64,000 nucleotides of DNA from Desertivirga arenae (GTDB lineage: Bacteria; Bacteroidota; Bacteroidia; Sphingobacteriales; Sphingobacteriaceae), in the NCBI RefSeq assembly GCF_017355785.1, contig NZ_JAFEWE010000014.1, forward strand, positions 62,001-126,000. Reading direction: 5' to 3'. A program made the position numbers and the translations under genes. Positions 50,257 through 55,808 of this stretch are shown here, one piece after another. Positions within the stretch are counted from its first letter, which is position 1, and each line of letters begins with the position of its first letter. The notes beneath the pieces were generated by a model that searched no databases, was not told the DNA's origin, and saw only the letters and a program-made list of their open reading frames with translations.

Positions 50257-50335
50257 ACTTTGTATTCCAAAGTTCTTTAAGACACACAAGTGTCTTTTTT
50301 ATTAATTGAGCACTTTGAATAACAAAGTACTTTAA
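50257..50335. repeat. Two copies of a 24-base palindromic repeat before the exosortase operon
   Basis: ACTTTG-N5-CAAAGT-N-CTTTAA occurs at 50257-50280 and 50312-50335 (20 of 24 positions equal), with centres 55 bases apart, close to five helical turns. The second copy ends 16 bases before the start codon at 50352. The inner ACTTTG/CAAAGT halves form 17-base palindromes. This is the layout of paired repressor sites with looping, for a PadR- or GntR-type regulator not in the window. Confidence 0.65.
50279..50300 (+). terminator. Terminator between alpha/beta hydrolase and exosortase operon
   Basis: AAGACAC (50279-50285) and GTGTCTT (50290-50296) with a 4-base loop ACAA, followed by four more T residues. 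It lies between the two palindromic repeats, 86 bases after the hydrolase stop. Confidence 0.65.
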
Positions 50336-50351
50336 CAAAACCATTAAATAA

Positions 50352-52874
50352 ATGACTAGATTTATTTCAACCTTAAAGCAAGATAGTATTATTTACACGG
50401 GGATCTGGATGGCAATAATATCAGGTCTCATCCTACTTGCAGGAACCTGTGTGGAAGTTTCGAATGAAGATAGCTTATTAGCGTTTTTCTTTTTGAATTA
50501 TGTAGCCACTGTTATTTATACAATAATTGTTTTCAGTACTGCCCTGAACAGGCATGGCTGGAGGCTTTCTAAAAGTAAAATAGATTACACTGTGATCATG
50601 TTAATTCTCTGGTTTATCAGTGCCTTTGCATTAAACAGGTTAATGAATGTTTTTGATGACTCAGTTCAGTGGCTCAGCATCCTGTTGGTCATGTGCTGTA
50701 TGGCGCTAATTGGCGCTCTTTTCATAAAGGACCTTCCCCTACCGTTAAAGCATATTACATTCTTTATTCTCGGATTAGCGATCGTAATTTTTGCGTATTA
50801 CTCTTTCTCGCTAATACCATTGTATCTCCTAAGCGTTCCTGCTTCAATCGGTCTTGGGATATCTCTTCACTCTTTTACTCCTCTTTGCCTTGCCATTGTT
50901 ACTATCACTGTTTCTATTTATGGCATCAAAAAACACGATAGATTAAAATTTTCAATAGTTGCAGGTCTGCTCTTGGCTGTAACAAGTATAAGTTGGTTCA
51001 CCTACAAGTGGAAATACATCAATGATTCGATAAACAAAATTTCTACCCACAACACTCTTGCAGAAGGGAAACTGCCGAATTGGGTATTGATAAGTCAAGC
51101 TATACCGAAAGGTGTCGTATCAGAGCGAATCATCAAGTCTGACCTTGTTTATAAAACTCTCGACCTAAGTGGTAACTGGCTATGGGGGGGATTCATGAAT
51201 AGTGCATTTGATGAGAAACAGCAACATGACCCTTTAGTTGTTCTTGCAAGTCTATTTGTAGGGAAGCCGCAAATAGATCAACGTGAACGGATCAAAATCC
51301 TTGAATCAATGTACGATTCAAGGCACCAGGCCCAGGAAAGGTTATGGAGCGGCGATAAACTGAAAACGCATACAGTTATTTCTAATGTCAGACTGATGCC
51401 TGAGTACCGCATGGCTTATACGGAGAAGATTCTCACCATCTCTAATAAATCCGCAGCAAGATGGAACCTGGATCAGGAGGCAGTCTATACCTTTCATCTT
51501 CCTGAAGGATCGGTGGTGAGCTCTCTGTCACTTTGGATCAATGGGAAAGAAGAAAAAGGTTATCTCACTACAAAAGCAAAGGCAGATTCAGCCTATAGAC
51601 AAGTTGTTGGAGTAGAACAACATGACCCCTCTGTTATTCATTGGCAGGAAGGGAATACGGTGAGTGTACGGGTTTTTCCTTGCACACCTCAGGAGGACCG
51701 ACGATTTAAGATTGGCATTACCAGCCCATTAAGAGTTTCAGGTACTGATCTCGTTTATGGAAATATCTATTTCGACGGCCCATCTGCAAATGAGGCAAAT
51801 GAGGCTTTGCAGTTAAGCTCATCTCTACCATTACCCGAATCCAGCATTCCAAAGGGTGCTGAGCTCGTGTCTAAAAATGTCTACCAGCTTGACGGGGATT
51901 ATCAGTCCGAATGGGAATTGAGGCTTCCAACCCCTTCCATTTCATCTCAGGTTTTTTCGTTCGACGGCAAGTCCTATCAGCTTTCAGATGCCAAGCTTGA
52001 GAGGTCTTCCTTTTCTCCAGAGCATATTTACCTTGATATAAATAGTGGGTGGACAAAGGATGAATTTTTAAGTTTATGGAAAAAAATCAAAACGAAAAAT
52101 GTCTATGTATTTGACGAAAAGCTGGTTCAACTGGATGAAGATAATAAGGACATGGAATTTCATAAATTATCAAACCTTAATTTTAGTCTTTTCCCGCTCT
52201 ATAAGATCAGCACACCTTCCACTGCTCTTCTAATTTCAAAAAGCAATGGTCCTTCACCAAATCTGTCAGATCTGAAAGGCTCTGAATTTTCGAATAGAAT
52301 GGAAGCATATCTTACTTCTGCCCCACCAATTCACTTGTATTTTATCGGCGAGCATTTATCCCCATACCTTCAAACCTTGAAAGAATTAAGAGTATTCCAG
52401 TATCAGGGCGGAGAACTTTCTACCTTGTTTAAAAATCTTGATAACAATACATTTACCAGTATTAGAGAAGATTCAACATCAGTTACTATAGCCGCGGCAA
52501 AGGTAAGTATACGGGAAATTACGGGCAAAGCGACAAGTAATGCACCCGATCATTTACTTCGGCTATATGCGTACAATCATATTATGAAAAAAGTAGCAGG
52601 CGGCTATTTCAAGGATGACTTTCTACAACCGGAAACAATTGCTGAAGCAGAGATAGCAAATATTGTAAGCCCTGTTTCAAGCTTGATCGTATTAGAAACA
52701 AAACAGGATTATGAGCGCTTTGGCATAGAAGAAAGCAAAAACAGCTTAAAGAATGCTTCTATGAAATCCTCAGGAGCCGTGCCTGAACCTCACGAGTGGA
52801 TGCTAATTCTGCTAACTGGTATAATTGTACTCTACTTATTAAGGAATAAGCAATACGCTAAAAAGGCTTTATGA
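50352..52874 (+). CDS. XrtN-system VIT domain membrane protein with PEP-CTERM-like tail
   Basis: An 840-residue protein. About seven helices occupy residues 14-215. A VIT domain lies at about 335-460 (TVISNVRLMPEYRMAYTEKI, FHLPEGSVVSSLSLWINGKE, ADSAYRQVVGVEQHDP, VRVFPCTPQEDRRFKI). A segment starting IYLDINSGWTKDEF (about 559) has the look of a VWA domain but without the MIDAS serines. The end is a sorting signal: PEP at 811-813 (VPEPHEW), a hydrophobic helix (MLILLTGIIVLYLL) and a basic tail (RNKQYAKKAL). Proteins with this tail are processed by an exosortase, and the exosortase gene follows with a 4-base overlap. It matches the described XrtN-target family. Confidence 0.88.
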   Translation: MTRFISTLKQDSIIYTGIWMAIISGLILLAGTCVEVSNEDSLLAFFFLNYVATVIYTIIVFSTALNRHGWRLSKSKIDYTVIMLILWFISAFALNRLMNVFDDSVQWLSILLVMCCMALIGALFIKDLPLPLKHITFFILGLAIVIFAYYSFSLIPLYLLSVPASIGLGISLHSFTPLCLAIVTITVSIYGIKKHDRLKFSIVAGLLLAVTSISWFTYKWKYINDSINKISTHNTLAEGKLPNWVLISQAIPKGVVSERIIKSDLVYKTLDLSGNWLWGGFMNSAFDEKQQHDPLVVLASLFVGKPQIDQRERIKILESMYDSRHQAQERLWSGDKLKTHTVISNVRLMPEYRMAYTEKILTISNKSAARWNLDQEAVYTFHLPEGSVVSSLSLWINGKEEKGYLTTKAKADSAYRQVVGVEQHDPSVIHWQEGNTVSVRVFPCTPQEDRRFKIGITSPLRVSGTDLVYGNIYFDGPSANEANEALQLSSSLPLPESSIPKGAELVSKNVYQLDGDYQSEWELRLPTPSISSQVFSFDGKSYQLSDAKLERSSFSPEHIYLDINSGWTKDEFLSLWKKIKTKNVYVFDEKLVQLDEDNKDMEFHKLSNLNFSLFPLYKISTPSTALLISKSNGPSPNLSDLKGSEFSNRMEAYLTSAPPIHLYFIGEHLSPYLQTLKELRVFQYQGGELSTLFKNLDNNTFTSIREDSTSVTIAAAKVSIREITGKATSNAPDHLLRLYAYNHIMKKVAGGYFKDDFLQPETIAEAEIANIVSPVSSLIVLETKQDYERFGIEESKNSLKNASMKSSGAVPEPHEWMLILLTGIIVLYLLRNKQYAKKAL

Positions 52875-54286
52875 TAAACTTTGCTTTAGTTCTTTTACGA
52901 CCAACGTTCAGCAAATTTTCTCACCTGGTAGTTTTGTTCTACCTGAGCATTGGCCTTGTTGCCTTTCGTAACTATTTTATTTGGGATGCGACGACTGTGT
53001 GTGGCTTTTTACTATTGCCCTTAATTTTCAGATTAAACGCCTGCTCGCGATCGATGCGCTTCCTTCCCCTTTCACTATTATCCGCAGTTCTGGCTATTTT
53101 TTTTCCTGTTAATAGTTGCCTTTTTCTCGCAGCTATTTTTGCCCTGATGTTCTTTACCGAAACTTACATCGGTAAGATAAATGTTTCTGCCGTTCTAACC
53201 CTGCTAATCGTCTCCCCTGTTTTTAAGTTCTTTATCAATACCTTTGGCTTTCCTCTACGTTTATGGCTAAGCGATATTGCGGCCAACATCTTTAGTATAA
53301 GCGGCTTGCCAGCAAAAGCCGAGGGTAATATTATTAACATTAACCAAAATAGCTTCACCGTTGAACAAGCATGTGCCGGCCTTAGCATGCTTAGTATTTC
53401 CCTGGTTATTTGTCTGTTTCTGATAGCTCATTGGGAAAGCAGAGTGAACAAACGAATTAAGGTATGGCAGATTTTTGGTCTTTTGACACTAAGCTTTTTC
53501 CTTAACCTTTCTGGTAATCTCATTCGAATTCTGTTTTTAGTCTTACTGCGGGTTGAACCTGATAACATTTTTCACGATTTGATAGGTGTAACTTGCCTTA
53601 TTGTCTATACGGTGCTGCCCCTTATGTATTTCGCCAAATGGCTCGTAAAGCGTGGAAACTTAATAGAACACCCTACAAATAAGATTAATAATAATTATCC
53701 GCCCCTGCTGGTCATTCACTTCATACTTTTCTCTATAATACTCTATGTTTCCTTAAACCTAAGTTCGATTGATAACATGAATACCAGAACAACTCGCATT
53801 CATCTGAACGGGTTTGATCGGGAAATTATGGATAATAAAATTGTGAAGTTCAGTAATAAGAGTTCGCTTATTTACTTTAAACCCAGCGTTTTTTACGCTC
53901 CTGATCACGATCCTAAAATTTGCTGGAGGGGAAGCGGATATATGTTTGATACTGTTAAAGAGGATAAGGTATTAAATTATAATGTTTATACAGGTATTCT
54001 GAAAAAGGGCAAGGAAAAGTTATATACCGCATGGTGGTACAGCAGCGGCAATACCACTACCACCAATCAATTTGAGTGGCGCTGGAAGTCAGCAGTTTCT
54101 AACGAGGAGTTTTACCTTATCAATGTAACAGCAGGTTCCGAAAAAGAAGTATTGTCGTTGGTTAGAGCACTTATTTCAAAACCTTTTCCTCTTAGAAACG
54201 ACCTTTCAAGCTATTTCAACAAGTTCATTTCGTTGCCGAAATATCCAGATAGAGGTTGGCTAATAATAAAACACAAAGATACTTAA
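52871..54286 (+). CDS. xrtN: Exosortase N with C-terminal EpsI-like domain
   Basis: A 471-residue integral membrane cysteine transpeptidase-like enzyme. Eight or so helices precede the conserved core: Cys 168 in VEQACAGLSML, Arg 219 in SGNLIRILFLV and His 235 in IFHDLIGV, the exosortase triad. After a ninth helix near 281-298, residues 300-471 form a periplasmic domain with APDHDPKICWRGSGY (Cys 351), like the EpsI domain that other exosortases carry or have as a neighbour. It should recognise and cut the PEP tail of the VIT protein upstream. No other PEP-CTERM protein is visible in the window, which fits a one-target dedicated sortase. Confidence 0.9.
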   Translation: MINFALVLLRPTFSKFSHLVVLFYLSIGLVAFRNYFIWDATTVCGFLLLPLIFRLNACSRSMRFLPLSLLSAVLAIFFPVNSCLFLAAIFALMFFTETYIGKINVSAVLTLLIVSPVFKFFINTFGFPLRLWLSDIAANIFSISGLPAKAEGNIININQNSFTVEQACAGLSMLSISLVICLFLIAHWESRVNKRIKVWQIFGLLTLSFFLNLSGNLIRILFLVLLRVEPDNIFHDLIGVTCLIVYTVLPLMYFAKWLVKRGNLIEHPTNKINNNYPPLLVIHFILFSIILYVSLNLSSIDNMNTRTTRIHLNGFDREIMDNKIVKFSNKSSLIYFKPSVFYAPDHDPKICWRGSGYMFDTVKEDKVLNYNVYTGILKKGKEKLYTAWWYSSGNTTTTNQFEWRWKSAVSNEEFYLINVTAGSEKEVLSLVRALISKPFPLRNDLSSYFNKFISLPKYPDRGWLIIKHKDT

Positions 54287-54305: not shown

Positions 54306-55808
54306 TTACTTTTCCCAATCAAGCCGATACATATGGACATCATACTTTAATTTGTACCCCAAAGAGGGCTTAGGGTCCTTCACCGGCAGGAATAATTGAC
54401 TATCAGTTATGGTCATTTCAGCCAGATCCGGTACATGCCCTTTTCCCACTTTTTCTGGCGCTATCATTTTCAGATCTTCAATTTTTCCTGAAGAAGCATT
54501 GATCTTTGCTACAGCGAACTTTGCTTTCCATTCATCCGAGGCGAATAGATACCAGGAATTGTCCCGGAGATCGGATCTGAAGGAAGGCCTTGTTACATTG
54601 CCATAAGCTCTTGGAATAGCTGAAGCCGACTTTACAACAAAATTGGAGTCCAGATTATAAACAAGAATGCCGTTAGCCGTATACGTAGGGGGAATTTTGC
54701 TGCCGGGAGTTCCAGGAAGATAGCGGACATCACTTAAGGCAATCAAATAACCATCTGCTGGGAAAGCTACACTCAGCAGGTTCAGGCCCGATACACTTCC
54801 AAGGTCCAGTCTCGAAAATTGCTTATTTAACGGAACAAAAGATTTTTCCAGGGTTTTTAAGTCTGCTTTTCTAAAGCTTTTCCTGAATGACACTTCCTTG
54901 TTAGTGCCAAAATCATACTTATTCAGGATATAGGTATATTCAGGCCCGTTAGTAAAACCGCCCGTGAGATAAGCAGTATTATTTCGGTGGGTGTCCGTTA
55001 TAAGATTTAAGGACCCTTGGCCCTGCAAGCCTGATGAGAGACCAAATGGTTCTAATACCATGGCCGATACTTCTTCTTTCCCTGCTTCAAACTTGGCAAT
55101 TGTTATCCCCTTTTTTTCTTCTGATACAGCAACATACAGATCCCCGTTTATGGTTTTAGCTGCCCCTATAAAGTCGCCATCCGGCAGAACAGGGAAAACC
55201 TTGTCAATAGTTGCAAGATGGCTATCATAGGCGGAGACGCTAAATTTCCTTATTGCAGAGGCATTATTCGCCATTTTCCTGGCCGCCCATAATGAACCAT
55301 TCGCATCCGCTGCTACTATAAAATTTCGTTTCGCACTGGTCTCTCGGGCAATCAGACTAAAGGTTTTCCTGTTCTTAGACACCACAAATTCGGCTACAGT
55401 CAAATAGTCGTTATTACCTTCGTAAATTACCTTTTCATGGATCACCTTACCATCCCTTGCATCCAGTAGGAAAGCTTTATAAGTACTATTATTCCCCCCA
55501 ACAGAGGCTGCAAAATCGGTACTGACTATTACCAGGATTTTATCTTCTAGGTCTGTACTAAACATTAACGAGCCTTCTACCGTCTGTTCCCAGTTCTTTT
55601 TCATCTCCAGTGAAGATGAAATGATCTTTACTCTTTTATCATTTTCGCTCGACAGGAGTAAAAGTTGCCCTAAGTGCAAAAAGCTGCTAACATGGGTACT
55701 ATTAGTAAAATAATATGGGGTTCTGATTTGATTTTGTGCTTTTAGTTTCGAAAAAAAGCATAACAGGAAGACTAAAAATAGTACACGAAAAAACTTAATA
55801 CTAATCAT
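54306..55808 (-). CDS. Secreted protein, beta-propeller-like, unknown function
   Basis: A 500-residue exported protein with a cleavable signal peptide (1-24, KLKAQ). The body is a series of beta strands with repeat-like units (LLLLSSENDKRVKIISSS, FIGAAKTINGDLYVAVSEE, YLIALSDVRYLPG), suggesting a seven-bladed propeller. No catalytic motif or recognised family. It is convergent with the exosortase gene, 19 bases from its stop. Confidence 0.65.
   Translation of the reverse strand: MISIKFFRVLFLVFLLCFFSKLKAQNQIRTPYYFTNSTHVSSFLHLGQLLLLSSENDKRVKIISSSLEMKKNWEQTVEGSLMFSTDLEDKILVIVSTDFAASVGGNNSTYKAFLLDARDGKVIHEKVIYEGNNDYLTVAEFVVSKNRKTFSLIARETSAKRNFIVAADANGSLWAARKMANNASAIRKFSVSAYDSHLATIDKVFPVLPDGDFIGAAKTINGDLYVAVSEEKKGITIAKFEAGKEEVSAMVLEPFGLSSGLQGQGSLNLITDTHRNNTAYLTGGFTNGPEYTYILNKYDFGTNKEVSFRKSFRKADLKTLEKSFVPLNKQFSRLDLGSVSGLNLLSVAFPADGYLIALSDVRYLPGTPGSKIPPTYTANGILVYNLDSNFVVKSASAIPRAYGNVTRPSFRSDLRDNSWYLFASDEWKAKFAVAKINASSGKIEDLKMIAPEKVGKGHVPDLAEMTITDSQLFLPVKDPKPSLGYKLKYDVHMYRLDWEK

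Follow-up and report, generated by a model that had tools for sequence, protein, structure and literature searches.

An exosortase N gene and the overlapping gene of its predicted VIT-domain substrate form a candidate one-target sorting pair in Desertivirga arenae

Can an exosortase be dedicated to a single protein, and what would become of that protein once its tail is cut? The question is raised by two overlapping genes in a 64,000-nucleotide stretch of Desertivirga arenae DNA (assembly GCF_017355785.1, contig NZ_JAFEWE010000014.1, positions 62,001 to 126,000), hereafter called the window. The downstream gene, xrtN, encodes an exosortase, and the upstream gene encodes a VIT-domain protein (Table 1). 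A first-pass annotation described an exosortase with an intact Cys168/Arg219/His235 triad whose gene overlaps by 4 bases that of a tail-bearing protein, and both open reading frames are found where it placed them. It also held that the XrtN type and its VIT partner had been named from genomics, and this is correct: judged by their scores, the window proteins are members of the already named NCBIfam families TIGR04477 ('XrtN system VIT domain-containing protein') and TIGR04476 ('exosortase N'), whose respective cut-offs of 250 and 200 bits are far exceeded. Neither XrtN or exosortase N, nor an exosortase together with a VIT domain, was found in the open-licence literature of PubMed Central (PMC). 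We propose, with moderate confidence, that the two proteins form a self-contained sorting pair, kept as a unit, in which XrtN would cut the tail of the VIT protein and most likely transfer the new C terminus to an acceptor in the cell envelope.

Conserved enzyme and tail

The active site of exosortases is formed by Cys, Arg and His. All three residues are invariant in the 56 XrtN copies compared (the window and 55 other loci), the other copies being only 20-41% identical to the window XrtN. The VIT gene lies directly upstream of xrtN, on the same strand, at 39 of 39 loci that are uncut by a contig end, the window included, and loss of the triad in a copy that retains its VIT partner was not seen.

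The window VIT protein ends in SSGAVPEPHEWMLILLTGIIVLYLLRNKQYAKKAL. The PEP motif, hydrophobic stretch and basic end that the first-pass annotation recognized at the extreme C terminus are evident in both the sequence and the alignment of 39 tails. Specifically, residues P811, E812, P813, E815 and W816 of the PEPxEW motif are invariant in all 39. The tail departs from the textbook form in that its hydrophobic run is short, at about 15 residues. A 19-residue hydropathy scan with a threshold of 1.5 does not call the tail and calls residues 763-781 instead; the structure model places a tail helix at residues 813-831. Matches to PF07589 occur in 3 of 25 VIT protein members, the window member not among them, with a best E of 0.11.

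A single recognizable target per genome

When the window's genome is searched at E<=10 with a profile built from the 39 tails, the VIT protein itself is the sole match, as the first-pass annotation had expected of a genome-wide search for a PEP motif followed by a helix and a basic end. Across the 56 genomes with XrtN, the VIT tail is the best match in 55 (E<=1.4e-26), and in the 56th (G511) the match is a fragment at a contig end. Apart from this fragment, the best match to anything other than a VIT protein in any of these genomes has an E of 0.002 and contains stops. Frames of about 260 amino acids in seven family genomes (E 0.12-1.24) were considered as second PEPxEW targets and rejected, the matched segment being an internal stretch of one conserved protein, with no tail, which we take to be exonuclease III. 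Three further weak matches were translated and are not tails; the remaining weak matches were not read singly.

The generic PEP-CTERM model TIGR02595 scores above its cut-off in 14 of the 56 XrtN genomes, and in six of these the match is the VIT tail. None of the nine over-cut-off matches in the other eight genomes is a credible second target, and none of five sub-cut-off matches that were read (two in the window's genome and three others) is a credible tail; other sub-cut-off matches were not read. The rejected matches are short frames, most of them without a Met before the match, or a frame of about 563 amino acids in genus g9. In 14 control genomes, the same model gives some match in 12 and a match above the cut-off in two. 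Many other PEP-CTERM proteins in the genome would have spoken against a closed circuit, and neither the 39-tail profile nor TIGR02595 yields a second credible tail. As a separate observation, the frame of about 563 amino acids recurs in genus g9 (L268, L269 and L273, and above the cut-off in G788) and has a C-terminal helix and a basic end, with no PEP motif.

A single PF09721 match had suggested that XrtN is the only exosortase of its genome. This was ruled out by a TIGR04178 match to a second exosortase-family protein, XrtY (L210:6938-7573, on contig 23 of the window's genome), which scores 185 bits against the XrtY model (cut-off 160). Because XrtY is encoded in the same genome, the closed circuit proposed in the first-pass annotation stands for the PEPxEW tail, which has a single match in the genome, and not for the exosortases as a whole. 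The XrtY gene adjoins a gene for a WcaF-type acetyltransferase.

Architecture of the two proteins

Hydropathy and loop charge predict that the VIT protein crosses the membrane through seven N-terminal helices and that its residues from 217 on lie outside. This predicted topology backs the earlier description of a polytopic protein whose product would remain anchored after removal of the tail. In a structure model of the whole length (predicted local distance difference test, pLDDT, 81.5; predicted template modelling score, pTM, 0.73), residues 333-787 match inter-alpha-inhibitor heavy chain 1 (6fpy; Foldseek E 2.1e-14). A structural alignment to 6fpy covers 388 residues at Z 14.7, root-mean-square deviation 7.8 and 10% identity, the next unrelated entry scoring Z 10.3. 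Because the model matches heavy chain 1 over this range, a VWA-like domain is placed after the VIT domain, and the ectodomain is predicted to consist of VIT plus a VWA-like fold. The Pfam VWA model has no match in any of the 25 VIT protein members. A working VWA metal site carries a DxSxS motif, which the VWA-like domain of the window lacks. Its corresponding residues are D562, N564 and G566 (DxNxG); among 39 members, the Asp is kept in 39 and the Asn in 37, and position 566 is Ser in 20 (Gly in the window).

The AlphaFold2 model of XrtN has a pLDDT of 85.8. No relative of solved structure was found by sequence at E<=1, and Foldseek gave no match at E<=0.001. A hydropathy scan finds eight helices, and strict alternation from an inside N terminus clashes with the charges of the later loops; a helix around residues 122-143 was probably missed. 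The first half of the topology is not cleanly resolved, and the second half alone was used here. From residue 186 on, loop charges (K+R counts of 4, 1 and 4) predict that His235 and the ends of the helices bearing Cys168 and Arg219 lie outside, and that the last helix (279-297) takes the chain outside again.

Residues 303-443 of XrtN lie beyond the exosortase core and contain an HxPxxCWxGxGY stretch and a WW pair that are invariant in 40 aligned copies. In the larger set, H346, P348, C351, G356 and Y357 are kept in 55 of 56 copies and W388 and W389 in all 56. We read this region as an EpsI-like domain, on the strength of a sequence bridge. Specifically, a stand-alone protein of 196 amino acids in locus L031 passes DUF3485/EpsI (PF11984; 31.4 bits, cut-off 26.1) and aligns to XrtN model positions 329-398 at E 1e-6. 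PF11984 itself gives weak matches to 4 of the 40 XrtN copies (best E 0.069; the window copy not among them), and none of the 40 scores significantly. The model of residues 303-443 resembles Mog1, SciW, PsbP and DcrB, with middling Z scores of up to 7.5. Fusion of an EpsI domain is not new, as is evident from the name of TIGR02914, 'exosortase C-terminal domain/associated protein EpsI'. The stand-alone protein in L031 adjoins a frame that, by eye, has an exosortase-like pattern.

Table 1 Features of the exosortase N locus (window positions; aa, amino-acid residues)
Feature	Position	Strand	Basis
VIT protein gene, predicted XrtN substrate (840 aa)	50352-52874	+	TIGR04477, 1019.9 bits; PF08487 VIT
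N-terminal bundle, seven predicted transmembrane helices (aa 18-216), N terminus inside	50403-50999	+	hydropathy, alternating loop K+R counts
VIT domain (aa 353-454)	51408-51713	+	PF08487, E 3.1e-12
VWA-like domain (about aa 555-770, limits by eye), departed metal site	52014-52661	+	model match to 6fpy, column counts
C-terminal tail: PEPxEW (aa 811-816; 52782-52799), short hydrophobic run, basic end	52773-52871	+	alignment of 39 tails
ATGA overlap of VIT gene and xrtN, 4 bases	52871-52874	+	open reading frame coordinates
XrtN gene, exosortase N (471 aa)	52871-54286	+	TIGR04476, 383.7 bits
Exosortase core (aa 16-257)	52916-53641	+	PF09721, E 4.8e-19
Codons of Cys168 / Arg219 / His235	53372 / 53525 / 53573	+	triad kept in 56/56 copies
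EpsI-like domain (aa 303-443), probably periplasmic; H346, P348, C351, G356, Y357, W388 W389	53777-54199	+	conservation, DUF3485 bridge, fold matches
Terminator-like hairpin and T run, between upstream hydrolase gene and the pair	50279-50296	+	consensus match only

Distribution and inheritance of the pair

Of the 395 phylum genomes sampled, five score above the cut-offs for both TIGR04476 and TIGR04477, and no genome does so for one family alone. The sample of 301 family genomes yields 21 with XrtN, of which 20 also have the VIT protein above its cut-off; in the remaining one, G511, the 3-kb contig bearing XrtN breaks off inside the stretch where the VIT gene would be. In a sample from another genus, 32 of 299 genomes have XrtN above the cut-off; the VIT family was not searched throughout this sample. 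A partial XrtN locus (L063) is present in a Bacteroidetes metagenome-assembled genome. A match over 75 positions in G560 (E 5e-4), which contains a stop, was considered as a remnant of XrtN and taken as chance, no relative of either protein being found in the 16 kb fetched. In many related genomes, long frames match VIT without reaching the TIGR04477 cut-off.

At two loci of genus g3 (L123 and L129), both the VIT protein and XrtN nest in a clade that otherwise holds genus g4, with support of 96/92 and 99/99, respectively; one g4 sequence, L122, falls outside this clade. The simplest reading of this agreement is that the VIT gene and xrtN were transferred together. The window VIT protein groups with L115 (support 98/97), but the XrtN tree does not support a place for the window copy (89/49).

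Neighbouring genes

Clustering by BLASTP of the neighbouring frames of 40 XrtN loci reveals a recurrent arrangement. At 17 of 20 family loci with upstream DNA, the VIT gene is preceded by a gene for a probable membrane protein of about 205 amino acids and one for a protein of 103 amino acids. Scans of one copy of each assign the latter to HTH_34 (PF13601, E 2.2e-28) and find no Pfam family above the cut-off for the former. Five of these 17 loci also have CreD (PF06123, E 2.7e-146, one copy scanned), either between the HTH_34 gene and the VIT gene (L118, L119 and L120) or after XrtN (L114 and L116). The window, L123 and L129 are the three loci of the 20 without this arrangement. Within the fetched stretches, the same clustering places the two upstream genes at none of the 18 genus g9 loci. 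The genome of the window carries its membrane and HTH_34 genes on a different contig (L249:4536-5452, contig 1), with neither CreD nor the pair nearby; a gene that by eye is MpaB-like follows the HTH_34 gene there (L249:6284-7066).

The membrane and HTH_34 genes were considered as XrtN-specific partners and rejected as such. The membrane gene occurs in 61 of 80 family genomes; among those with XrtN the count is 20 of 21, and among the others 41 of 59. In nine other stretches with the membrane gene that were read, the HTH_34 gene is next in all nine, and CreD then follows it in five (L250, L251, L252, L253 and L257). We infer that this gene order is the more ancient unit, within which the VIT-XrtN pair is a module.

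Other features lie around the pair. Downstream of XrtN in L121, L124 and others are genes of small membrane-type, DUF2809 and MpaB-like oxygenase proteins, each at 10-11 of 21 family loci. In the window, a gene on the - strand (54306-55808) is convergent with xrtN and encodes a 500-residue protein with no Pfam family above the cut-off. The terminator-like hairpin upstream of the pair is weak evidence, since the region contains four such sites against 3.6 expected in shuffles.

Relation to known systems

XrtN is not the only dedicated exosortase encoded next to a large VIT protein. In the named system XrtK/MSEP-CTERM (TIGR04287/TIGR04286), the exosortase likewise neighbours a large membrane VIT protein that bears a tail at its C terminus; MSEP-CTERM was not found in the open-licence PMC literature. 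The two systems differ in several respects. XrtK frames, at 178-216 amino acids, are too short for the C-terminal domain of the long XrtN; XrtK precedes its partner, whereas XrtN follows it; and the MSEP partner ends in an M[SD]EP tail rather than PEPxEW. The window VIT protein scores 60.3 bits against TIGR04286, below the cut-off of 150.

The XrtK/MSEP pair is also found downstream of the same membrane and HTH_34 genes, at five of six loci (L260, L262, L263, L264 and L265); the six were picked by hand for a VIT match that is near the membrane gene or long, so that five of six is no frequency. TIGR04287 confirms the exosortase at three of the six loci and TIGR04286 the partner at two; the other assignments are by BLASTP only. 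Four of the five arranged loci have a frame of 519-564 amino acids in between, which is DUF4153 in the one scanned, and in L260 (4218-12967) CreD also lies downstream of the pair. The sixth locus, L267, is from another family and has neither a membrane nor an HTH_34 gene upstream. That two unlike exosortase-VIT pairs follow one regulator suggests that they have a similar envelope function. A coarse search of the open-licence literature showed no mention of the position shared by CreD and the exosortase pairs.

Many-to-one exosortases, such as cyanoexosortase B, resemble XrtN in their exosortase core, in the PEP-helix-basic tail of their targets and in an EpsI domain that is fused or separate, but they serve many targets where XrtN has one recognizable target; there are 35 putative targets in Nostoc punctiforme (PMC12188702). 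VIT/VWA-type proteins also bear the C-terminal signal in sortase and rhombosortase systems, whose enzymes are unrelated to XrtN. In an LPXTG case, a VIT/VWA protein is the only target in its genome and lies in a cassette with its sortase (PMC3237569). Against TIGR03788, the window VIT protein scores 18.2 bits (cut-off 551.65). Heavy chain 1 shares the VIT plus VWA-like fold and differs at the metal site, its metal-ion-dependent adhesion site being Asp298/Ser300/Ser302/Asp403 (PMC7170535), compared with D562/N564/G566 in the window. For XrtF and its partner in Flavobacterium johnsoniae, there is genetic evidence that an exosortase-family protein is important for surfaces (PMC10936215).

Discussion

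According to the predicted topology, the VIT protein would sit in the inner membrane through its seven N-terminal helices with its VIT/VWA-like ectodomain in the periplasm, and the PEPxEW tail would pin the far end of that ectodomain to the membrane. As expected from its family, XrtN would cleave the tail at PEPxEW or close to it, the reaction passing through a thiol intermediate at Cys168. The freed C terminus would then most likely be moved to an envelope acceptor, for example a lipid or glycan, and the EpsI-like domain may help to bind substrate or acceptor; we hold both of these steps less firmly than the cut. XrtN would have no other recognizable target in the window's genome, and the pair would be kept, and in at least one case apparently transferred, as a unit, which in most family relatives follows the probable membrane gene and the HTH_34 regulator, sometimes with CreD. 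With the N-terminal bundle still in the membrane, simple release of the product is unlikely, and the outcome would be either a free distal end, acting as a switch, or a transferred end, acting as a tether.

Several points weigh against this reading. Cleavage by XrtN, and attachment of the cut end, are predictions. The generic model TIGR02595 does not list the window tail at E<=10, and XrtY could permit cross-talk. The pair is patchily distributed (5 of 395 phylum genomes and 21 of 301 family genomes), the two other genomes of the same genus in the family sample lack it, and the operon linked to it is not specific to it. Furthermore, the XrtN copy of G782 (L258:1503-2621, - strand; 373 amino acids) has lost the HxPxxC stretch in frame while keeping the triad and a VIT partner frame of 835 amino acids, so that the stretch may be dispensable or this copy may be decaying.

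What happens after the cut separates the tether from its closest rival, in which XrtN only hydrolyses the tail and leaves the VIT/VWA part free to change shape or bind a partner, with no acceptor. This rival corresponds to the proposal in the first-pass annotation that cleavage may be an activation step. The seven predicted helices would hold such a product in the membrane just as well, a VWA-like fold suggests binding, and no obvious acceptor-making enzyme is found among the conserved neighbours that were scanned (neighbours at single loci were not annotated); we nevertheless regard this purely hydrolytic switch as rather unlikely. That XrtN also serves proteins with unrecognizable tails, or that XrtY shares the VIT substrate, is very unlikely in our estimation. 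Such a wider circuit would fit the presence of XrtY in the same genome and the case of XrtF in Flavobacterium johnsoniae, for which the authors predict targets unlike PEP-CTERM (PMC10936215). It is opposed by the joint passing of XrtN and the VIT protein in both samples, with one exception at a contig end. Finally, the patchy distribution and the position of the window copy outside the arrangement of 17 of 20 family loci could point to a decaying remnant without activity. The window copy otherwise fits both families, and the full-length frames, the triad kept in 56 of 56 copies and the tail motif kept in 39 of 39, despite 20-41% XrtN identity to the window, make decay exceedingly improbable.

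The sorting pair that we favour, with transfer to an acceptor, invites comparison with the inter-alpha-inhibitor heavy chains. HC1 and HC2 lose their C-terminal pro-domains, and their C termini become ester-linked to chondroitin sulfate (PMC7170535). This parallel is a cross-kingdom analogy and proves nothing about XrtN. A broader and speculative proposal, quite unlikely to hold as a whole, is that envelope modules (CreD alone, VIT-XrtN or DUF4153-XrtK-MSEP) can stand in for one another in an operon led by the membrane and HTH_34 genes in these, probably Bacteroidota, genomes, and that the exosortase covalently transfers the C terminus of a VIT/VWA protein resembling the inter-alpha-inhibitor heavy chains (ITIH-like) to an envelope glycan or lipid. 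With its N terminus still in the inner membrane, the protein would then be a tether held at either end. If true, this two-end tether would mirror the heavy chains, whose C termini are likewise cut and ester-linked to polysaccharide.

To the named families, this analysis adds a test of the one-target relation, a C-terminal region of XrtN that is read as EpsI-like, an ectodomain predicted to resemble heavy chain 1, the presence of XrtY as another exosortase in the genome, and a position common to CreD and XrtK/MSEP. Exosortase chemistry is hard to study in systems with dozens of targets, and a one-target pair with an invariant tail would offer a clean two-gene test of the fate of the cut end. 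The occurrence of two unlike exosortase-VIT pairs and of CreD after the same regulator suggests an envelope function that is genetically testable, and the ITIH-like fold raises the question of whether VIT/VWA proteins have repeatedly served as cargo that is covalently attached at the C terminus.

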